A stretch of 64,000 bases of DNA from Companilactobacillus allii (GTDB taxonomy: Bacteria > Bacillota > Bacilli > Lactobacillales > Lactobacillaceae), in NCBI RefSeq assembly GCF_001971585.1, contig NZ_CP019323.1:796053-860052 (forward strand), in the 5' to 3' direction. Below the pieces are notes generated by a model. The model worked only from the letters and a program-made list of their open reading frames with translations. It was not told the DNA's origin and made no database searches. Made by a program: the position numbers and the translations under genes. Positions 24,693 to 45,145 of the stretch are shown here, piece by piece; positions within the stretch are counted from its first letter, which is position 1; each line of letters starts with the position of its first letter.

Positions 24693-25176
24693 CAGGATTT
24701 ATAGCCGAAACGCTATATCAAATGCAGTCTCTTCCGTTTAACTCAAAAAGAATGTCATTTGTTTTTTGTTAAAGTTAAAGTTCTACTTTTTTGCTGGTTG
24801 TTTGCTTCGCAAACGCGTAACAACACACAATTTCTTCCGCTTAACATTAAAAGAGATGTCATCCACTGTCGTGAATGGCACCTCTTTTAGTGTTAATGCT
24901 CGGAAATTATTCGCGTGTTGTTACGCTCTTTATTTGAAACGCGAAAAAATACACAATTCCTTCCGTATAACGCCACAAAAAAATCTTCACTTTCGTGAAG
25001 ACCTTTTTGTAGAGTTATTACTCGGGAATTAATCGTGTATTGTTACGGCTCTGTCTGAAACGCGATACCAAGCGCAGTCTCTTCCGTTTAACTCAAATAA
25101 TCAATATTCACATGCGTGAATACCGATTATTTAATTTAATACTCGGAGACTACCCGCGTTTGTTACCGCTCTTTTT
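24693..25176 (-). repeat. Array of about four hairpin repeat units
   Basis: No gene lies in 24,606-25,149. The stretch holds consecutive related units, each with a CTTCCG-type left arm, a private inner hairpin and a CTCGG-type right arm. Inner hairpins are AAAAGAGATGTCAT-like at about 24,848, AAATCTTCACTTTCGTGAAG at about 24,980, and AATATTCACATGCGTGAATA at about 25,102. Outer arms include GCGTAACAACAC with GTGTTGTTACGC. The unit nearest 25,150 overlaps the end of the flavoprotein gene and encodes its last residues. Confidence 0.8.
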
Positions 25177-26994
25177 TAGGGCATTGCCAACGGCTTCTTT
25201 AATCGCTTTACTAGAAGCTGAAGCTCCGGATATTGCATCTACTTCAATGGAATTTTTAGCTACAATATCTTTGGGCAATTGTTCAATGGCTTTCAAGCCA
25301 TAATCGTCTGATTCACTTTGTTTCAAAATTTCGACGTTTTTAATATCGTTATTGTCGTCAACTGTTACACGGACTACTATTTCATTGCCCATGCCGGCAC
25401 TGGATTTTCCGATATATTGATTGGGTCCTGTTTTGAAATTGTCTTTTGAAATATCAGATCCTAACGTACCGATGTTTTTATTTTTGTCATGTTGGCTGGC
25501 AGATGTTTCGGCATCATATCCGGTTAGGTCATTAGTGACACCGGCAGCGGCGTTTTCTCCGGCAATTTTACCAATGATTAAATCTTCGGCAAGATTACTA
25601 CCACCGTTGTATTTACGTCCCATCATACTGCCCAATTCACCGGCAGAATATAGCTTGGGGATGACCTCTCCATCTGTGTCGATCACTTGTGCTTTGGCGT
25701 TATGAACTGGTCCACCTACTGTGTTCAATAGTCCTTGAGATAAGGCGATGATATAAAATGGTCCGTCGTTAAAGGCAGTCAATGTCTTAGGGTCACGATT
25801 GAAGGCATAATCACGTTTTGCTTTGGCGAAGTAGTTGAAGTCTGTAATTGTATTTTGTATCTTATCAATATCAACGTTCAACTTCTGTGCTAATTCATTT
25901 ACGTCATTGGCCTTAATAGTGTTCTCTAAGAATTCAGGATAGGGGACATTTGTTTCATTTGATAATTCATCGTATTTCTTTTGGTCGAAGACTAAGAATG
26001 GATGTAATTGTGCATTTGGAATTCTCCATTGTCCATGATCTTGTATGTGACCATGTCTGTGAATCTCGTTTTCATCAAAGTAACGAGTTCCATCATCTCC
26101 AACTACAAAGACACTACCTTGATGGAATTCTGGCCAATCAAATGGCATAAATAAAGCACGTTGACCAGATTTTGGCTTTGGTGTTAGGCCATGGAAGATT
26201 CCGTAGGATTCATAGTTAGCCATATTGTACATCTTGGCGCCAACATCTTGAGCCATATTCACACCGTCACCTTTGTTATAAAGGGAACCAATTGGGTGTA
26301 GGCTAGTTTCGCCAAGGTATGTTTGGACCATTTCTGGATTATTCTCAAATCCACCAGTAGTCATAACGACACCATGTCTAACTTTGATATCTAATAATTC
26401 ATTATTATGCTTTATCTGTACACCGATGATCTCTTTGCTATCGGAATCTTGAATCAGATGAATGGCAGGAGTTTCATATAGTACGTCAATCTTGTCTGAT
26501 CGGTCTAAGACTTGTTGTCTTAAGTTCTTCCATAGTGCAGCATCAGCGACACCTTCGTGAACGGCAACCAATTCGTGAGTCTTTGATCCGGGTAGTTCAG
26601 GGTATTCATGTGCCATGAAGTATAATCCCTTATATAATGGAGAGTCTTTGTGTTCACCCATAACAAAAGGCTTAACACCAAGGTACTTCTCTAAAAATTC
26701 GGGAATCTTATACAATCCTTCTACGTATGTATCCATTAGATCTTTGTCAAAATCAAGTGGATAGGCAAGTTGTTTATAGTATTCTTTCAAGTCATCAAGG
26801 TTGTCTCCAGATGAAATAACTTGTCCGGCATAACGAGTATTTCCACCTTCATGTCCCTCTGGAGCGGCATCAACCAACAATACTTTAGCACCATTATCTG
26901 CCGCAAAACGTGCAGCAGTAGCACCAGCACCACCGAAGCCTAATACTGCGACGTCATAAGTTGCATCCCAGCTAGTATATTTGTCTTTAAACAT
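25150..26994 (-). CDS. FAD-dependent reductase with C-terminal FMN_bind domain
   Basis: Flavoprotein of 614 residues of the fumarate/urocanate/hydroxycinnamate reductase family. The FAD-binding part opens with VAVLGFGGAGATAARFAADN and NTRYAGQ and closes with LYSAGELGS...GGSNLAEDLIIGKIAG near residue 475. An FMN_bind domain fills about 530-610; DAISGAS (586-592) matches the ApbE flavinylation motif, so S592 likely carries covalent FMN. There is no signal peptide, so it would be cytosolic. The start at 26994 is set by AAGGAG; a GTG three codons earlier overlaps that site. The last residues KSGNKRG are encoded by the hairpin repeat. The electron acceptor cannot be told; two-domain hydroxycinnamate reductases have a similar plan. 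Confidence 0.88.
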   Translation of the reverse strand: MFKDKYTSWDATYDVAVLGFGGAGATAARFAADNGAKVLLVDAAPEGHEGGNTRYAGQVISSGDNLDDLKEYYKQLAYPLDFDKDLMDTYVEGLYKIPEFLEKYLGVKPFVMGEHKDSPLYKGLYFMAHEYPELPGSKTHELVAVHEGVADAALWKNLRQQVLDRSDKIDVLYETPAIHLIQDSDSKEIIGVQIKHNNELLDIKVRHGVVMTTGGFENNPEMVQTYLGETSLHPIGSLYNKGDGVNMAQDVGAKMYNMANYESYGIFHGLTPKPKSGQRALFMPFDWPEFHQGSVFVVGDDGTRYFDENEIHRHGHIQDHGQWRIPNAQLHPFLVFDQKKYDELSNETNVPYPEFLENTIKANDVNELAQKLNVDIDKIQNTITDFNYFAKAKRDYAFNRDPKTLTAFNDGPFYIIALSQGLLNTVGGPVHNAKAQVIDTDGEVIPKLYSAGELGSMMGRKYNGGSNLAEDLIIGKIAGENAAAGVTNDLTGYDAETSASQHDKNKNIGTLGSDISKDNFKTGPNQYIGKSSAGMGNEIVVRVTVDDNNDIKNVEILKQSESDDYGLKAIEQLPKDIVAKNSIEVDAISGASASSKAIKEAVGNALKKSGNKRG

Positions 26995-27052
26995 TTTCTT
27001 CACTCCTTAACTATCAATGTATTCATGATTATTATAATTCAATTTTTAGTTT

Positions 27053-33431: not shown

Positions 33432-34367
33432 ATGGAAACAGCTGAAAAGAAACTACACTTGATGGGAACGATAATTATAGTGTGGGTAAAAGCCAAGAAC
33501 CCGCAAGATTTATTGGATATGGCCGAGAAAAAATTAATAGATTATGAGAGCCGCTTCAGTGCTAATGCTAAGTCACATCTTACTAATATTAATGACAATG
33601 CTGGAATTAGACCAGTAAAAATCGAGTCAGACTTATTTGAATTAATTAAGATTGGTAAAGAACAAAGTTTGATTAGAAATAGTGCTTTGAACATTGCGAT
33701 TGGGCCACTGATTCAGGCGTGGAGAATCGGCTTTAATGATGCGAGATATCCGGGCCAAGCAAGGATCAATGAATTACTCAAATTGATCGATCCTGCAGAT
33801 ATTATCTTGGATGAAACTAATCAGACAATTTTTTTAAAGCACAAACAAATGTCACTGGATCTAGGAGCTATAGCTAAGGGATATTTTGCTGATAAAATCA
33901 TTAATTACTTCAAATCACAACAGGCCAGTGCTGGATTCATTAGTCTGGGTGGCAACGTTTTGACCTTTGGCGATGAGCCAGATCATTTGGATGGAATGTG
34001 GAGGATTGGGGTTCAGAATCCATTTTTACCACGTGGTAACTTTGTGGCTACTTTAAAAGTCTTAGATAAGTCAGTCGTCACATCAGGTATTTATGAACGC
34101 AAGTTTGTCTTTAAGGGTCATACTTATCATCATATCTTCGATACATCTACTGGATATCCAATCAAAACTAATCTTGAAAGTATTACTATAGTCGCTGATA
34201 AATCGATCGACTGTGAAATTTGGACCACTAGATTGTTTGGTCAAAATGCGCTAAAGGCGGTTGAGATATTGAATAAACTCGACGGAATCGACGGGGTGGT
34301 TGTTACAACGGATGGACAAATGGCCTATTCAGATGGATTAAAGAAAAAAATAACGCTAGTTCAGTGA
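33432..34367 (+). CDS. apbE: FAD:protein FMN transferase (ApbE), cytosolic type
   Basis: Transfers FMN from FAD to a serine or threonine in target proteins through a phosphoester bond. It has 311 residues with no signal peptide or lipobox, so it acts in the cytosol. Family motifs are IGPLIQAWRIGF, LDLGAIAKGYFADKI, FISLGGNVLTFG, VTSGIYERKF and HHIFDTSTGYP. Nearby cytosolic FMN_bind proteins at 36143 and 25150 are likely clients. Its stop codon is four bases from that of a convergent LysR gene, within a shared hairpin. Confidence 0.93.
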   Translation: METAEKKLHLMGTIIIVWVKAKNPQDLLDMAEKKLIDYESRFSANAKSHLTNINDNAGIRPVKIESDLFELIKIGKEQSLIRNSALNIAIGPLIQAWRIGFNDARYPGQARINELLKLIDPADIILDETNQTIFLKHKQMSLDLGAIAKGYFADKIINYFKSQQASAGFISLGGNVLTFGDEPDHLDGMWRIGVQNPFLPRGNFVATLKVLDKSVVTSGIYERKFVFKGHTYHHIFDTSTGYPIKTNLESITIVADKSIDCEIWTTRLFGQNALKAVEILNKLDGIDGVVVTTDGQMAYSDGLKKKITLVQ

Positions 34368-34397
34368 TAATCAACTTATCATTGGGCTAGCGTTTTT
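34352..34397. terminator. Bidirectional terminator overlapping apbE and lysR ends
   Basis: The stem AACGCTAG-CA-TGATAA with complement spans both stop codons, with AAAAAAATAACG on one side and CGTTTTTTAC on the other. Confidence 0.88.
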
Positions 34398-35327
34398 TAC
34401 TTCAATATCAAATTTTAAATAATGTAAAAATGAATCAACAAGTTCTGTTTCAGCCGCAATCAATGTCTTATCTGCAGGGTGGGCAATGAAATAATTCAGT
34501 GAAATCAGGTCCATTGGTAACTTGTAAATATTGATGTTGTCGTTAGCTTTAGGGATGGGAACACTCTCAGGTAAAAATGTAACACCTAGATTATTAGTTG
34601 CTAGAGCAACAATTGTGAAGATGTTGTTACTCTCCAGAACAATATTTGGCTGGATCTTGAACTTATGAATCAAGTAGTCAACTTGTCGTCTGATGGCAGA
34701 TCCGTGAGTGGTGAGGATCAAGTTTTCCTGTAAAAGAGACTTAATAGAGATACTGCCAGGTTTTAAGAATTTTTCTTTGGGTTGATATAGTTTGGAAGAT
34801 TCAGGGATTATGGCGTAATATCCATGTTTTCCTTGATCATAGACAGTCAGTCTTGGGGAAATAGTCTCAGGATTTTGGCCGATGAAGAAGTCCAAGTCAC
34901 CGTTGAGAGTTTTCTTTTCATTGATATCAGGTATAGCCTCATATAATTCTATTTTTACATTTGGATGAGACTTTAAGTAAGTTGGCAAAAATAATGGTAA
35001 TAAATATGTTCCTAGACTAGATAGGACACCAATACGAATAATGGTGTGCTCAGTTGAGGCATATTTTGAGATCTGTTTACGGAAGTTGTCTTGTTTCACT
35101 TCCATTGAATTCAAATACTGATAATAAATTCGACCAGCTTCGGTCAACTGCAGTGGAGTATCGTGTCGATTGATAATTTCAATGTCGAGTTCTTTCTCGA
35201 CTTTTTTTATTGTCTGAGTTAGATAGGGCTGTGAAATATAAAGACTTTTTGCAGCTTTGGTATAGTTCCCATATTTGAGTAAAGTATCTAGATATTGCAA
35301 CATATTCGGTGAATCGATCATTGGCAT
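34371..35327 (-). CDS. hcrR: LysR family regulator, HcrR-like
   Basis: Regulator of 318 residues with an N-terminal helix-turn-helix (KYGNYTKAAKSLYISQPYLT, then DIEIINRHDTPLQLTEAG) and an effector-binding domain from about residue 90. The start at 35327 follows AGGAGTG; the longer in-frame start has none. It is divergent from the FMN reductase/reductase operon, the classic LysR layout, and in L. plantarum a LysR regulator accompanies the hydroxycinnamate reductase genes hcrA-hcrB. The name is therefore by context. Confidence 0.8.
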   Translation of the reverse strand: MPMIDSPNMLQYLDTLLKYGNYTKAAKSLYISQPYLTQTIKKVEKELDIEIINRHDTPLQLTEAGRIYYQYLNSMEVKQDNFRKQISKYASTEHTIIRIGVLSSLGTYLLPLFLPTYLKSHPNVKIELYEAIPDINEKKTLNGDLDFFIGQNPETISPRLTVYDQGKHGYYAIIPESSKLYQPKEKFLKPGSISIKSLLQENLILTTHGSAIRRQVDYLIHKFKIQPNIVLESNNIFTIVALATNNLGVTFLPESVPIPKANDNINIYKLPMDLISLNYFIAHPADKTLIAAETELVDSFLHYLKFDIEVKNASPMIS

Positions 35328-35358
35328 TATCAACACTCCTATCCTAATTACCTTAATT

Positions 35359-35490
35359 ATAACAAATTTGTTATGGGTCAATAATTAAATAAATATTTCA
35401 CAATAACTAGATTGTACACTAGACTTTGAATTAAGGGATTTTCTAGATGTACAATAGTAAATCCATTTTTTTTAAATATATTTGTGAAAT
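35359..35490. promoter_or_regulatory. Divergent lysR/hcrA control region with three palindromes
   Basis: ATAACAAATTTGTTAT (35359-35374) is a perfect 16-bp palindrome near the lysR start. ATTGTACA (35411-35418) and TGTACAAT (35448-35455) form an inverted pair 29 bp apart; the second overlaps the probable -10 TACAAT (35450-35455), whose -35 is TTGAAT (35426-35431). ATTTCACAA (35395-35403) and TTGTGAAAT (35482-35490) are a wider inverted pair. LysR activators commonly bind such sites. Confidence 0.55.
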
Positions 35491-35519
35491 AAAGAACAAA
35501 AATCAAAAGAGGTATTAAT

Positions 35520-36143
35520 ATGAAATTTATCGGGATAGTCGGTACTAATGCGACCAAGTCAACCAATCGTCAATTGTTACAATTCATGCAAAAACACTTC
35601 TCTAAAAAAGCTGATTTAGAGGTTTGTGAGATAAAAGGTCTACCAGCATTCAATCAGCCCCAAGATCGTGTATTACCAACAGGACTCAAGGATTTATCGG
35701 ACAAAATAGAAGAGTCTGATGGAGTAATAATTGCAACACCAGAATATGATCACACTGTTCCAGCTCCATTGAAGAGTGTTTTGGAGTGGCTATCGTATAC
35801 AACAAGACCCTTTATTGATAAGCCAGTTATGATTGTCGGTGCTTCTTATGGGGCATTGGGCTCATCACGTGCTCAAAATCACTTAAGACAGATACTTGAT
35901 GCACCAGAATTAAAAGCACGAGTAATGCCAAGTGAAGAATTCTTATTGGGACATTCACTTCAAGCCTTTGATGAGTCTGGTGATTTGATCTATAAGGACA
36001 AAGCCACGGAGTTAGAAGAATGTTTTGATCAATTCTTATTGTTTGTAGATATTACTAATCAATTAGTAAAGAATCATGGCTTCCAAGCTGAACAAAACAA
36101 AGAATTCACTTGGGAAAAGGCAACTGAAGGGGGCAACAACTAA
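35520..36143 (+). CDS. hcrA: NADPH-dependent FMN reductase, HcrA-like
   Basis: Flavodoxin-like NAD(P)H-dependent FMN reductase of 207 residues. Visible are the flavin phosphate loop [18 protein letters not shown] (6-23), [20 protein letters not shown] (about 68-87) and [18 protein letters not shown] (about 102-119). It probably supplies electrons to the reductase encoded next. Its stop overlaps the next start (TAATG). AGAGG precedes the ATG. In L. plantarum, hcrA has this role and place beside hcrB. Confidence 0.82.
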
Positions 36144-38566
36144 TGAAGTTTATTGGAATAGTTGGAACAAATGCAGAAAAATCATATAACCGTATGTTGT
36201 TACAATTTATGAAGCAACATTTCAGTGATAAGGCTGAGATTGAGATTCTTGAATTGTTCGATGTACCAATGTTTGATGAATCAGATGACCAATCTAATAG
36301 TGAGATCATCCAAGAATTCAATACTAAGATAAGTGATGCCGACGGTGTCATTATTGCGACTCCTGAACACAACCACTCAGTGCCATCAGCTCTAAATAGT
36401 ATTATCGAATGGCTATCATTTAATCTACATCCTTTTGATGGTAAGCCAGTCATGATCGTTGGCGCTTCATTACATCCCCAAGGATCATCACGTGCCCAAC
36501 TGCACTTGAGACAGATACTTGATGCACCAGGTGTTAATGCAGCTGTTATGCCAGGTTCTGAGTTCTTGTTGGGCCAAGCAAAAGATGCTTTTGATGACAA
36601 TGGGAATTTGAAATCAGAAGGAACGATTGACTTCTTAGATAGCTGTTTCACAAAGTTCAAACGCTTCACAGAAATTGCCAATCTATTAAATGTTCCAGAA
36701 GATCTTAATTTTAAACCAGGAACTTTTGAAGTAACGGCTAAAGGACACAATGGAGATCTTCCAATGTCAGTTACTTTATCAGATGATCGAATCGAAGATA
36801 TTGATATTGATACTTCAAAGGAAACAAAGGGAATCGCTGACGTGGTATTCACGAAGATCCCTCAAGAAATTGTCGATGGTCAGACCTTGAACGTTGATGT
36901 GATTTCTGGAGCTTCAATAACAAGTCATGGAGTTATCGATGGTGTTGCTAAAGCTGTGAAAATGGCCGGTGGTAACCCTGAGATATTGAAGAAACGTCCT
37001 AAGGCTTCAAATATTGTTCGAAATGATGAAGAATACACAACTGATGTAGTTGTCGTTGGTGCTGGTGGTGCAGGATTAACTGCAGCTGCCAAGATCCTTG
37101 ATGAAGGTAAGTCGGTTATTATCGCTGAAAAGTTCCCATCACCAGGTGGTAACACAGTACGTGCCGGTGGACCAATGAATGCCGCTGATCCAACATGGCA
37201 AAATAAGTTTGATGCCAATGCCGGTGAAGCACACCGATTAAAGGAAATCAAAGATATGAAGCTGGATGATATCGATCCAGAATATCGTGATGACTTCAAA
37301 GAGTTACAGAAACAAATTGGTCAATATCTTGATAGTAAAGGTAATTACCTATTTGATTCTAAGCTCTTGTTCAGAATCCAAACTTACTTAGGTGGTAAGC
37401 GTACTGACTTGCAAGGTAACGAGATTCACGGCCAATATGATTTAGTTAAGATTTTGACTGACCATGCCTTGGAATCAGTTAAGTGGCTCGAAAAAGTCGG
37501 AGTTGAGTTTGATAAGAACGAAGTAACTATGCCCGTTGGAGCTCTTTGGCGTCGTGGACACAAACCTATGGGGCCAGAAGGATTCGCTTATATTAAAGCT
37601 TTGAAGAAGTATGTCGAAGATAACGGCGGCAAATTGATGACAGAGACACCAGTCAAAGAGCTCATTATTGAGAATGGTGAAGTAAAAGGAGTCATTGCTC
37701 GTGGTAACAGCGGTCAAAAGATCACTATTCATGCAAACTCAGTCATTCTAGCTTCAGGAGGATACGGAGCTAATACTAAGATGTTGAAGAAATACAACAC
37801 TTACTGGACAGAGATCGACGACGATATCAAGACTTCTAATTCACCAGCTATTACCGGAGATGGTATCAAGCTTGGCTTGAGTGCTGGAGCTGATTTAGTA
37901 GGGATGGGATTCACACAAATGATGCCCGTTTCCGATCCAGATACAGGAGAAATATTTACTGGACTACAAGTTCCACCAGCCAATTTCATCATGGTCAACC
38001 AATCTGGTAAACGTTTCGTTAACGAATATGGAAGCCGTGATCAACTAACTCAAGCAGCCATTGATAACGGAAACTTGTTCTATTTAATAGCAGATGATGA
38101 GATCAAAAAGACTGCATATAATACATCACAAGAAAAAATCGATAATCAAGTTAAAGCAGGAACACTTTACAGAGACGACACACTGACTGGATTGGCCAAA
38201 CAATTGAAGATAGATCCAGAAGTATTCGTTGATACTATTACCAAATATAATTCCTACGTTGACGCAGGAAATGATCCAGAATTTGGTAAAGACGCCTTCG
38301 ACTTGAAAGTTGTCAAAGCACCATTTTATGCCACACCAAGAAAACCAGCTATACATCATACAATGGGTGGTTTAAAGATTGACCCAGAGACACACGTTTT
38401 GAACAAAGATGGCCAAATAATCAACGGATTATATGCCGCAGGAGAAGTAGCCGGAGGATTACACGCAGGTAACAGATTGGGTGGTAATTCACTTGCTGAT
38501 ATCTTTACGTTTGGAAGAATAGCGGGCAAAGAGTCAATAAATCAGAGAGTGGAACAAAGCGAATAA
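36143..38566 (+). CDS. hcrB: Three-domain flavoprotein reductase, HcrB-like
   Basis: Protein of 807 residues joining three domains: NADPH-dependent FMN reductase (1-190), FMN_bind (about 195-275) and FAD_binding_2 reductase (about 298-805). DVISGAS (252-258) is an ApbE flavinylation motif, so S258 probably bears FMN. The FAD part begins [18 protein letters not shown] and ends [20 protein letters not shown]. The plan and length match HcrB of L. plantarum (about 812 residues), which reduces hydroxycinnamic acids to phenylpropionic acids; fumarate or urocanate cannot be excluded. No signal peptide. The last residues and stop lie in a repeat-like hairpin arm (GAGTGGAACAAAGCGAATAA). Confidence 0.85.
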
Positions 38567-42378: not shown

Positions 42379-42942
42379 ATGAAAATTGAAGCCATCGTGG
42401 GCTCAAACAAAAAGTTATCATATAATCGTAAACTATTACAGTTTATCAGTAAACACTTTACTGACGATGAAATTCATATTAATGAAATAAAAGATATTCC
42501 GATGTTCAATGAAAATTACCCAACTGGTAATGATGATAATTATGATCCAGAGTTAATCACAGAATTAGCTAAGAGACTTACTGAGGCAGACGCCATAATC
42601 ATTGGTTGTCCAGAATATAATCATTCTGTACCATCAGCACTTAAGAGCGTTATCGAATGGTTATCGTATAGGATTCACCCGCTTAGTGGTAAGCCAGTTA
42701 TGATCGTGGGTGCTTCTATTCATCCCCAAGGTTCATCAAGATCGCAGACTCATTTGCGTGAAATACTAGATTCACCTGGAGTTAATGCTGAAGTGTTCCC
42801 AGGAAATGAGTTCTTTTTAGGAACTGCTAAAAAGTCCTTTGATGAAAATGGTGACTTGATCAATCCAGGAACTGTAGCGTTTCTAGAGAAATGTTTCTCA
42901 GGATTCAGACTATATTCAGAAGAAATCCATAAGTTCAAATAA
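42379..42942 (+). CDS. NADPH-dependent FMN reductase
   Basis: Flavodoxin-like FMN reductase of 187 residues, paralogous to the one at 35520 and to the N-terminal domains at 36143 and 42964. Loops are [38 protein letters not shown] and [18 protein letters not shown]. The start at 42379 follows GGGAGG; an in-frame upstream start at 42337 lacks a site. First gene of a three-gene operon with the PAS/flavinylation-motif protein and ApbE. Confidence 0.88.
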
Positions 42943-42963
42943 TACAGAAAGGAAGTTAATTTT

Positions 42964-44094
42964 ATGAAACTTGTTGCTATTGTTGGTACTAACGCAGACT
43001 TTTCATATAATCGTATTTTATTACAATATATGAAATGGCATTTTAGAATGTCTGCTGATATCGAAATATTAGAAGTTAAGAAATTACCACCATTCAACGA
43101 AGATTTACCAGATAAAGAACAAACTGAAGTTTGGCGGTTCAATACTAAGATAAATAACGCCGATGGAGTAATTATTGCGACACCAGAATACGATCACTCC
43201 ATTCCTGCAGCTTTGAAGAGTGGACTAGAATGGTTGTCATTCAATCGCGACATTATGAAAAAAAAGCCTGTTATGATCGTGGGTGTTTCATATGGAACAC
43301 AGGGTACATCCCGTGCCCAGCAACAATTACGACAGATGTTACTTTCACCTGATTTGAATTCTAATGTTCTACCAGGTAATGAGGTGTTGATTGGTAATGC
43401 GGCCAAAGTTTTTGATAAGAATGGCTTTGTGACTGATATCAATATTGTTCACAACCTTGAAAACAGTTTTACGGCATTTAATAAATTTGTAAAATCAAAT
43501 ATGCGTTATTTAGAAGAGGGAGACGATAACATGACTGAACCACATATTAGCAGTGATGCGTTGATCAAGTTCCGCACCGGTAGTTTGAGTATTAAAGAGA
43601 TCCAACAGATTTTCAATACTTTACCATTTGAGATTGATTTCATTGATGCAAATGATAATTTTGCATATTTCTCAGATAAACCCAATCGTGAGCATGTTCG
43701 TCATACAGCAGAGATCGGAGAACCCGTTCAACAATGTCATCCGCCAAAGGTATGGCCAATCGTTAAGGGAATACTAGATAGTTTCAAATTGGGAACAAGT
43801 GATCATGTTGAGCGTTGCTTACCATTGAATGGCCACAAGGTGTGGATCAATTACTTTGCAGTTCGAGATGAATTCGGCAAGTATCTTGGTACTATGGAAT
43901 TCACTGGTAACGTAGGCCACTTAGTGAGCTTGGTTCAAGAAGGCAAGTTTGATGGTTTTCCTGATGCAACAACAGGTGCTTCAAAGCATGACGACTCTGA
44001 TGACTCAGAAGAACAAAGTGGCCCAACGCCTCAAGTTGATGCAACAACAGGTGCTTCAGAACATGATGATGAAAGTGCTGATAAAACTGAGTAA
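42964..44094 (+). CDS. FMN reductase-PAS fusion with two C-terminal flavinylation motifs
   Basis: Protein of 376 residues. Residues 1-185 are an FMN reductase domain ([37 protein letters not shown]). Residues about 190-325 are a PAS-like domain of the DUF438-associated type (LIKFRTGSLSIKEIQQIF, FEIDFIDANDNFAYFSD). The acidic tail holds DATTGAS twice (334-340 and 359-365), both fitting the ApbE target motif D-x-x-(S/T)-G-A-(S/T). An ApbE gene follows two bases on. An ATG at codon 190, with GAGGGAG before it, could also start a separate PAS-tail protein. No signal peptide. Proposed role: an electron-carrier protein with covalent FMN on a flexible tail; inference. Confidence 0.8.
   Translation: MKLVAIVGTNADFSYNRILLQYMKWHFRMSADIEILEVKKLPPFNEDLPDKEQTEVWRFNTKINNADGVIIATPEYDHSIPAALKSGLEWLSFNRDIMKKKPVMIVGVSYGTQGTSRAQQQLRQMLLSPDLNSNVLPGNEVLIGNAAKVFDKNGFVTDINIVHNLENSFTAFNKFVKSNMRYLEEGDDNMTEPHISSDALIKFRTGSLSIKEIQQIFNTLPFEIDFIDANDNFAYFSDKPNREHVRHTAEIGEPVQQCHPPKVWPIVKGILDSFKLGTSDHVERCLPLNGHKVWINYFAVRDEFGKYLGTMEFTGNVGHLVSLVQEGKFDGFPDATTGASKHDDSDDSEEQSGPTPQVDATTGASEHDDESADKTE
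43511..43533 (+). promoter_or_regulatory. Possible internal ribosome binding site inside the fusion gene
   Basis: GAAGAGGGAGACGATAAC stands directly before an in-frame ATG at 43531 (codon 190), exactly at the border between the FMN reductase and PAS domains. It looks like the ribosome site of a formerly separate gene, and may still give a shorter product of 187 residues. Confidence 0.5.
43963..44091 (+). repeat. 75-bp tandem duplication coding the two flavinylation motifs
   Basis: The 21 bases coding DATTGAS are identical at 43963 and 44038, followed in both by a CATGA-GA acidic stretch. The unit length is 75 bp (25 codons), so the second motif probably arose by recent in-frame duplication. 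Confidence 0.75.
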
Positions 44095-44096
44095 TT

Positions 44097-45038
44097 ATGA
44101 TTGATAATCTTATTCAACACAGAATACATAAGACTGGCTATGCACTAGGGACTAATATTTCGTTAACGACATTTGGAACTTTGAACAGCTTTGGAGTCGA
44201 TGAAGCTTTTAAATTAATTCAAAGATACGAAGATCTATTAACAGTTAATCGTGGTCACTCAGAGATGATGTCGGTCAATAAGTCCGCAGGATTAGATCCA
44301 GTGCAAGTTTCAAATGCTACGTATTCATTAGTTAAAACAGCAATGAAATATAGTCGTCAAAACTTTGGATTCAATGCAGCAATTGGACCACTAGTCAAAC
44401 TTTGGAAGATAGGATTCGTTGGAGCCAATATTCCTAGTGATGATGATATAAAGAAAAGAATGCGACTAATCGATCCGAGTGATGTTGAATTAGACGACGT
44501 CAAACAGTCAGTATTTCTACATAAGTCAGGGATGGAGCTAGATCTTGGTGGTATTGCCAAAGGGTATATTGCCGATAGAATCAGAGACCTGTGGCATTCA
44601 TTAGGCATTGATAGAGGAATTATTGACCTAGGCGGTAATGTCTTATTCGTTGGAGATAGTCCCAATCAAGCAAACCATAAGTGGATCGTTGGCGTACAAG
44701 ATCCCACGAGTAAACGCGGTGAGACCATTGAAAATATCCAAATAGGCGAGTGTTCAGCCGTAACAAGTGGTATTTATGAACGATTCTTAGAGATAGATGG
44801 CAAAAAATATCATCACGTCATTGACCCAAGAACCGGATATCCACTAAAAACTGATCTAGCAGCCGTCACAGTCTTTGTTAAGAATTCCATTGAAGGTGAA
44901 TTAGAAGCCAAACGATTGTTTTTCAACAACGGACCAATTCCCAATTGGGGAGCTGATAATGACGATTTGTATGGCGCTGTTTTAGTTTATCAAGATGGAC
45001 ACTTTACAACATTGAAGAGCGTAACAGAACGCGAATAA
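44097..45038 (+). CDS. apbE: FAD:protein FMN transferase (ApbE), cytosolic type
   Basis: Second flavin transferase of the window, 313 residues, without signal peptide. Motifs are IGPLVKLWKIGFVG, LDLGGIAKGYIADRI, GIIDLGGNVLFVG, AVTSGIYERFL and HHVIDPRTGYPLKTD. It starts two bases after the fusion gene that carries two DATTGAS motifs, so that protein is the likely client. The last residues SVTERE are encoded by the outer arm of the hairpin repeat that forms its terminator; the same tail is found on the unrelated cyclophilin at 46747. Confidence 0.93.
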   Translation: MIDNLIQHRIHKTGYALGTNISLTTFGTLNSFGVDEAFKLIQRYEDLLTVNRGHSEMMSVNKSAGLDPVQVSNATYSLVKTAMKYSRQNFGFNAAIGPLVKLWKIGFVGANIPSDDDIKKRMRLIDPSDVELDDVKQSVFLHKSGMELDLGGIAKGYIADRIRDLWHSLGIDRGIIDLGGNVLFVGDSPNQANHKWIVGVQDPTSKRGETIENIQIGECSAVTSGIYERFLEIDGKKYHHVIDPRTGYPLKTDLAAVTVFVKNSIEGELEAKRLFFNNGPIPNWGADNDDLYGAVLVYQDGHFTTLKSVTERE

Positions 45039-45145
45039 TTTCCGAGTATTAGCACAAAAAATGGGGCCTTCACGAAAGTGAAGACCCTATTTTTTATGCT
45101 AAACGGAAGAAATTGCGTTCTGTTACGCGTTTGCGAAGCAAACAG
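45016..45145 (+). repeat. Intergenic hairpin repeat copy overlapping apbE
   Basis: Outer arm GAGCGTAACAGAACGC (45017-45032) pairs perfectly over 14 bp with GCGTTCTGTTACGC near 45113-45126. Middle arms TTTCCG and CGGAAG; inner hairpin AAAATGGGGCCTTCACG with GTGAAGACCCTATTTT. The small hairpin GTTTGCGAAGCAAAC follows at about 45,127-45,141. Confidence 0.85.

Follow-up and report, generated by a model that had tools for sequence, protein, structure and literature searches.

A conserved FMN reductase-PAS protein with repeated bare flavinylation tags encoded beside apbE in Companilactobacillus allii, and its possible role in a cytosolic flavin relay

We analyzed a 64,000-nt stretch of the Companilactobacillus allii genome (NZ_CP019323.1, positions 796,053 to 860,052; the window) and, within it, a three-gene operon at positions 42379-45038 of the + strand. 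The operon encodes a flavin mononucleotide (FMN) reductase-family protein (P0001), a protein (P0002) in which FMN_red and PAS_10 domains are followed by a tail bearing two seven-residue flavinylation motifs (flavin tags), and ApbE, the flavin adenine dinucleotide (FAD):protein FMN transferase (P0003). As a whole, the operon is best explained as a cytosolic NADH-driven flavin relay, to which we assign a probability of about 0.47. The architecture is real and conserved, is far wider than first thought, and was partly anticipated by two separate papers (PMC4500961; PMC11334425).

The open reading frame coordinates confirmed the gene order and spacing described in the first-pass annotation, with 21 nt between P0001 and P0002 and 2 nt between P0002 and P0003. 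P0001 (42379..42942, 187 aa) matched Pfam FMN_red with 119.2 bits, in keeping with the proposal that an adjacent FMN reductase could feed the flavins; its pocket residues S9 and S14 were counted by hand against the positions in PMC4500961. P0001 is an HcrA paralogue, presumably comparable to one subunit of the Lactobacillus johnsonii FRedA/FRedB heterodimer, and with P0002 it makes two consecutive FMN_red genes, as in the FRedA/FRedB arrangement. P0002 (42964..44094, 376 aa) begins with an FMN_red domain (residues 1-147, 42964..43404, 116.5 bits), whose Foldseek matches include the reductases ChrR, FerB, and YhdA. A PAS_10 domain containing a CHPP motif follows (residues 214-314, 43603..43905, 64.8 bits); its closest solved structures are 2qkp and 3cax, which do not indicate the PAS ligand because both are labelled uncharacterised. 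The protein ends in an acidic, disordered tail (residues 332-376, 43957..44091), where DATTGAS occurs twice, 25 residues apart, as had been noticed: tag 1 at residues 334-340 (43963..43983) and tag 2 at residues 359-365 (44038..44058), with S340 and S365 as the predicted FMN sites. Pfam found no FMN_bind (PF04205) match in P0002, and in the AlphaFold model (34-row alignment, mean predicted local distance difference test score [pLDDT] 77.6, predicted template modelling score 0.50) the tail has a pLDDT below 50. The tags are thus bare, as the annotation had held, and an overlooked FMN_bind domain was ruled out by the Pfam result and the disordered tail. P0002 also agrees with the class pattern of Huang et al. 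2024, namely, an FMN_red domain, a C-terminal D-x-x-[ST]-G-A-[ST], and an adjoining apbE.

The transferase gene (44097..45038, 313 aa) likewise bore out the annotation: P0003 matched PF02424 with 231.4 bits against a cut-off of 25.6. Its best solved relative is 7esa, an FAD:protein FMN transferase, and R229 and H240 of P0003 align with Arg242 and His253 of 7esa (positions counted by hand). By its family match and these aligned residues, P0003 is predicted to be an FMN transferase. We take 7esa to be FmnB and read its numbering as offset by +20 (253/242 to 273/262). The catalytic residues of FmnB are named as His273/Arg262 in a review (PMC12052999). No signal peptide or lipobox was seen by eye at the start of P0001, P0002, or P0003. 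A terminator-like hairpin lies 3' of the operon (45068..45083, + strand; three in the region versus 1.8 in shuffles, weak alone), and a promoter scan gave 18 candidates versus 11.1 expected, with nothing usable.

The tags were then counted as a canonical motif, D-x-x-[ST]-G-A-[ST], and a relaxed motif, D-x-x-[STA]-[GS]-A-[ST]. The tail set comprised 76 distinct proteins scoring at least 150 bits at 20 genus loci, 40 genus-spread loci, and 80 named loci, with the window excluded and no protein removed for a missing motif; because the bit score includes the tail, the set leans to tailed proteins. Each tail was taken from the first relaxed motif inside the last 200 residues. The 76 tails (3720 residues) contained 161 canonical and 230 relaxed motifs, compared with a mean of 0.32 and a maximum of 2 canonical motifs in 200 shuffles. 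Other open reading frames at the same loci contained 21 canonical motifs in 351251 residues, true FMN_bind sites included. Motifs per protein ranged from 0 to 6 (canonical) and from 1 to 7 (relaxed). Among the relaxed motifs, position 7 was Ser in 224/230 and position 5 was Gly in 178/230. The spacing between tags was 12-28 residues in 143/154 intervals, with linkers rich in E, A, P, and K.

At the DNA level, 31 copies of DATSGAS were 31 different words, and among 140 pairs of motif codons from five orthologues, 47 differences were synonymous and 6 nonsynonymous. The two DATTGAS copies of the window have identical DNA and may therefore stem from a recent duplication; from species to species, the tag DNA varies and the motif is kept. 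In a genus alignment of the window protein and 18 relatives (19 sequences), D334, G338, A339, and S340 of tag 1 and D359, A364, and S365 of tag 2 were invariant, and L323 was the sole further invariant position beyond residue 314. These sequence patterns indicate that the tags are maintained by selection. An origin by chance or by duplication in one species was ruled out by the shuffles, the spread across genomes, and the codon pattern.

Some tails depart from this picture in composition. At L097 5161-6519, L293 6001-7353, L195, L103, and L120, all motifs are non-canonical (D-x-x-A-S-A-S and similar); genomes with only such tags may have an ApbE of relaxed specificity or may carry decaying tags. 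In one genus outside Lactobacillaceae, perhaps Streptococcus (L272 and L274), Gly/His-rich linkers such as GGHGDGGHGD lie beside the flavin tags and are perhaps metal binding.

We also examined whether the family occurs together with ApbE. A search for the architecture across Lactobacillaceae, as had been suggested, gave matches to a PAS+tail profile in 206/397 genomes (25/40 genera), and 127/246 Lactobacillales genomes (39/64 genera) matched at the order level. The tagged members mostly carry two to four motifs. Strong matches, defined as E of 1e-38 or better, were found in 179 Lactobacillaceae genomes and in 82 genomes of other Lactobacillales families. Part of the 179 tails were inspected individually, and the listed Lactobacillaceae strong matches reach model positions 161-180. 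A strong ApbE match was present in 178 of the 179 genomes versus 48 of the 218 others (Fisher p 3e-66, phylogeny ignored). The single exception, G284, is a genome 76% complete whose PAS protein is tagged. Five Lactobacillaceae genomes had a PAS match and no ApbE match: G284 and four weak-match genomes, in which the PAS protein is tagless. When twelve genomes (G284 and eleven weak matches) were re-searched, the PAS proteins inspected were without a motif except in G284, and one very weak match (G122) yielded no open reading frame. At the order level, co-occurrence says little because ApbE is nearly universal there (222/246 genomes); none of the 82 strong genomes from other families was among the ApbE-less genomes listed (20 of 24).

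The best named match of P0002, from C. hulinensis, shares 92% identity over the full protein. In a survey of 36 Companilactobacillus genomes, with forms judged by an open frame plus a PAS match or tail, a full orthologue was present in 5 (C. allii included), a stand-alone 170-aa PAS protein with two tags and an overlapping apbE in 4, and a 410-444 aa FMN_red+PAS form in 24; one genome (G009) has an interrupted gene, and two were without any match. At 20 order-level loci, hand-picked mostly from strong matches, 19 encoded a tagged protein with two to four relaxed motifs each, except nine in L284; an HcrA-like FMN_red gene adjoined it in 19/19 and apbE in 16/19. The twentieth (L276) encodes a PAS protein without tags. 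In the named scan, PAS proteins from outside Lactobacillales, including those of Clostridia and Bacteroidota, had no tag motif. L284 5497-8145 encodes an 882-aa protein with one FMN_red domain, three PAS_10 domains, and the nine relaxed tags between and after these domains. On an Enterococcus faecium plasmid (L292 4113-8221, NZ_CP011282.1), a regulator-apbE-FMN_red-tagged protein cluster lies between IS1216 copies; of the 95 Enterococcus plasmid records with at least a partial match to the query, one region was inspected.

Genes and fusions around the tagged proteins were then considered for their bearing on an electron acceptor. Within 6 kb of the 76 tailed proteins, a separate FMN_red gene was found at 58 loci, ApbE at 45, and an FAD_binding_2 reductase at 18. 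Of these 18 neighbors, 15 are divergent and contain FMN_bind, and 3, from two genera, are of the soluble fumarate reductase type, accompanied by fumarase and a DASS transporter. In Limosilactobacillus fermentum DR9, genes for a flavocytochrome c, fumarase, and a DASS transporter are divergent from those for FMN_red and the tagged protein. A strong TIGR01813 match was present in 152/179 tagged-protein genomes versus 84/218 others. A natural fusion, FMN_red-PAS-tags-FMN_bind-FAD_binding_2 with an extra C-terminal tag, is encoded at L232 1501-4563 and L233 1498-4566 (chains of 1020 and 1022 aa, 96% identical, in two genomes, G304 and G328, of one genus). In this genus, the ~633-aa FMN_bind-FAD_binding_2 proteins (L234-L244 and L247) carry a bare C-terminal tag in 12/12 cases from 11 genomes, 10 relaxed and 2 canonical (DTVTSAS, DATTSAS, DVVTGAS, and DTASGAS), beside the FMN_bind site; an 826-aa HcrB-like protein of the genus is without a terminal bare tag.

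A bare tag was also seen on another type of enzyme. At L095 1552-3447 (also L206, Pediococcus stilesii), a pyruvate oxidase-like thiamine diphosphate enzyme ends in DVVSGASQHV, and at L095 its gene immediately precedes apbE, FMN_red, and the tagged-protein gene. This is one gene, in 1/12 genomes of its genus (20 loci inspected).

In the proposed relay, which is the most economical reading, P0001 would pair with the FMN_red domain of P0002 to form an NADH:FMN reductase dimer, as FRedA and FRedB do in L. johnsonii, and P0003 would attach FMN to S340 and S365. The dimer would hand electrons to the tethered FMNs, substituting for the free FMN used by FRedA/FRedB in vitro, and the flexible arm would carry them to soluble FAD_binding_2-type reductases of fumarate or enoates, a transfer that HcrB makes inside one chain. 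In air, the arm would deliver electrons to O2, forming H2O2. The PAS domain would hold the arm against the dimer and may control it in response to redox state or oxygen. In L. johnsonii, the NADH-dependent FRedA/FRedB heterodimer accepts free FMN (Km 20 uM) or FAD, but not riboflavin or quinones; it makes H2O2, and H2O2 production by the bacterium requires it (PMC4500961). Flavinylation of FMN_red tags, the flow from NADH through FMN to O2, and the influence of a PAS protein on the reductase dimer have all been demonstrated for relatives elsewhere. From the directly observed anatomy, conservation, co-occurrence, fusions, and neighbors, we infer flavinylation of P0002, the direction of electron flow, the acceptor, and the role of PAS. 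Flavinylation of P0002 is highly probable, and the tethered flavins are probably fed by the adjacent reductase; that the main acceptor is an FAD_binding_2 reductase is a tentative assignment.

Another reading is that the tag only retains FMN in the FMN_red pockets of its own dimer, as proposed for a Lactococcus FMN_red. Modelling and SDS-polyacrylamide gel electrophoresis (SDS-PAGE) on FMN_red relatives (PMC11334425) speak for it, as do the properties of FRedA/B, which binds FMN with a dissociation constant of ~2 uM and was purified with 0.58 FMN per dimer (PMC4500961). However, 29 of the 76 tails have at least three canonical tags, i.e., above the two sites of one dimer (52/76 by the relaxed count), tags occur on PAS proteins without FMN_red and on FMN_bind-FAD_binding_2 reductases, and a cytosolic protein would have little need to stop flavin loss. 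As the sole account, this reading was rejected on tag number and the stand-alone PAS-tag proteins; we consider it unlikely. A mobile relay is favored over it because tags exceed two, occur on stand-alone PAS proteins and acceptor reductases, and are found in the fusion. It is very improbable that the tail is unflavinylated and that its motifs do something else, for example bind proteins. In favor of this view, the last residue of the tag is almost invariably Ser, a poorer ApbE substrate than Thr (PMC12052999). The scripted count gave 10/76 tails without a canonical motif, and since L112 has canonical motifs upstream of the 200 residues scanned, 9/76 proteins have non-canonical motifs only. The first-pass annotation had named homologues that keep the tail and lose the motif as evidence against its proposal; such loss was seen for the canonical form in these nine, but each of the 76 keeps at least one relaxed motif. 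The ApbE co-occurrence (178/179) with operon linkage, the tagless PAS proteins of four ApbE-less genomes, and the experimental flavinylation of related FMN_red tails (PMC11334425) all argue against an unmodified tail.

The tethered FMN might instead dock in or near PAS, report redox state or O2, and set dimer assembly and H2O2 output. Within this family, PAS accompanies the tags throughout, in stand-alone PAS-tag proteins as well; LjPAS preincubated with FRedB lowered the initial rate from 6.8 to 2.6, with no effect once the dimer had formed with FMN, and its expression was lower without oxygen (PMC4500961). A docked cofactor would nevertheless not usually come with as many as seven relaxed tags joined by low-complexity linkers. 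The tagged proteins scanned contained neither a DNA-binding nor a kinase domain, and fusion to a catalytic reductase argues for turnover. Moreover, LjPAS and FRedA/B were made in Escherichia coli BL21 with no ApbE partner named (PMC4500961), so LjPAS was probably empty in vitro, and the published work probably used unmodified protein. A sensor is a doubtful account of the operon, and PAS may have a regulatory role alongside the relay. Several observations weigh against the relay itself. All 15 FMN_bind-type neighbors are from Companilactobacillus and so are not independent, which lowered our estimates for the acceptor, the relay as a whole, and multi-flavin carriage and raised that for a sensor. 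Of the 76 tailed loci, 58 are without an FAD_binding_2 neighbor inside 6 kb (some of these loci are truncated at a contig end), no reductase gene adjoins the window operon, and 27/179 tagged-protein genomes are without a strong flavocytochrome c-type reductase match (TIGR01813), so an acceptor of this type is not obligatory. One strong match (G155) ends at model position 142, short of most of the tail. Many PAS-tag proteins are without an FMN_red domain, so the domain that consistently goes with the tags is PAS and not the reductase. Finally, LjPAS slowed FRedA/B in vitro and did not drain it (PMC4500961), though it was probably unflavinylated.

The window contains further genes of relevance outside the operon. 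A 617-aa FAD_binding_2+FMN_bind reductase (DAISGAS; 25150..27003, - strand), a possible partner, sits 15 kb from the operon, and its homologues in other Companilactobacillus, the 15 FMN_bind-type neighbors, are divergent to apbE-FMN_red-tagged protein. The region 33432-38566, 4 kb upstream of the operon, holds a second apbE (33432..34367, +), a LysR regulator, and an HcrAB-like pair: an HcrA-like FMN_red (35520..36143, +) and an HcrB-like FMN_red+FMN_bind (DVISGAS)+FAD_binding_2 protein (36143..38566, +), a cis-fused analogue. This places two apbE genes, along with two likely targets of flavinylation, inside 12 kb. The genome also encodes a 469-aa FAD_binding_2 protein outside the window, which, with the 617-aa and HcrB-like proteins, is a candidate acceptor.

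Surveys have dealt with ApbE flavinylation chiefly as a modification outside the cytosol (PMC8238504; PMC11334425). The PAS-tail family would be a case of cytosolic flavinylation with tags alone; it is widespread in one order and is linked to the H2O2 enzyme of L. johnsonii and, in at least two genera, to fumarate reductase gene clusters. It offers a testable electron donor for the soluble fumarate reductases of lactic acid bacteria, as well as natural tag arrays for protein labelling. More speculatively, Lactobacillales tails of repeated bare tags could be intracellular multi-flavin carriers, loaded by ApbE, charged by a PAS-held NADH:FMN reductase, and discharging into O2 or into soluble fumarate/enoate reductases, of which some bear matching tags. 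If so, they would play in the cytosol the part of multihaem or multi-FMN_bind wires, the PAS-tag protein would be the electron donor of soluble lactobacillar fumarate reductases, and LjPAS would be the private electron acceptor of an H2O2-forming reductase, so far studied empty.

The first-pass annotation knew of no description of this architecture, but FMN_red-PAS_10 fusions and LjPAS (PMC4500961) and flavinylated FMN_red proteins (PMC11334425) precede it, which reduces the novelty of P0002. FRedA/FRedB-LjPAS and the operon both combine two FMN_red partners with a PAS_10 protein, in many cases as a fusion; Valladares et al. 2015 (PMC4500961) reported LjPAS homologues fused to an FMN reductase in other species (Lp2732 and EF1227), and PMC7074142 names EF1225, by number two loci from EF1227, as apbE. 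LjPAS (28 kDa) corresponds in size to stand-alone PAS-tag proteins of 244-246 aa in one genus (L122, L132, and L133), which we infer from size and domain to be its counterparts. The words apbe, covalent, and motif are absent from PMC4500961. Huang et al. 2024 found that FMN_red proteins with C-terminal motifs adjoining apbE (examples, Lactococcus lactis WP_021723379.1 and L. taiwanensis) are flavinylated on SDS-PAGE and that the Ser/Thr is needed; the results name the cognate apbE, and the methods name added Listeria ApbE (PMC11334425). That class has a C-terminal extension with one to two motifs by apbE, as here, whereas the PAS-tail family has more tags, and PAS has no whole-word occurrence in the available text of the paper. 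Among the papers listed in a search whose coverage of subscription journals and preprints was poor, no title or abstract connected LjPAS-type proteins to flavinylation, and the portions seen of PMC11925238 and PMC9864754 contained nothing on the FMN_red-PAS-tag system. Two literatures found unlinked, LjPAS/FRedA-FRedB and ApbE flavinylation, are thereby brought together.

Cytosolic ApbEs exist, and a seven-residue motif suffices for ApbE, best at a terminus (Fan and Fraaije 2025, PMC12052999). The artificial flavin-tag described there is likewise seven residues long, terminal, and without FMN_bind, but it is engineered, whereas the tags of P0002 are natural and conserved. HcrA/HcrB of Lactiplantibacillus plantarum, an NADH- and FMN-dependent hydroxycinnamate reductase (PMC10295242), resembles the operon in combining an FMN_red partner with a larger reductase-domain chain, and similar genes are present in the window. 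The HcrB-like window protein carries FMN_bind and FAD_binding_2 in one chain. In their place, P0002 has PAS and bare tags, and FAD_binding_2, the mark of the large HcrAB chain, was not found in it by Pfam. Multi-flavinylated FMN_bind proteins carry several covalent FMNs per chain, with proposed longer-distance electron transfer (PMC8238504); these are extracytosolic folded repeats, whereas the tags of PAS-tail proteins are bare, and inspection by eye showed no export signal in the window proteins. Relative to these precedents, what is new is the joining of LjPAS and flavinylation, the tag arrays, the natural fusion to an FMN_bind/FAD_binding_2 reductase, and the bare tags on such reductases.

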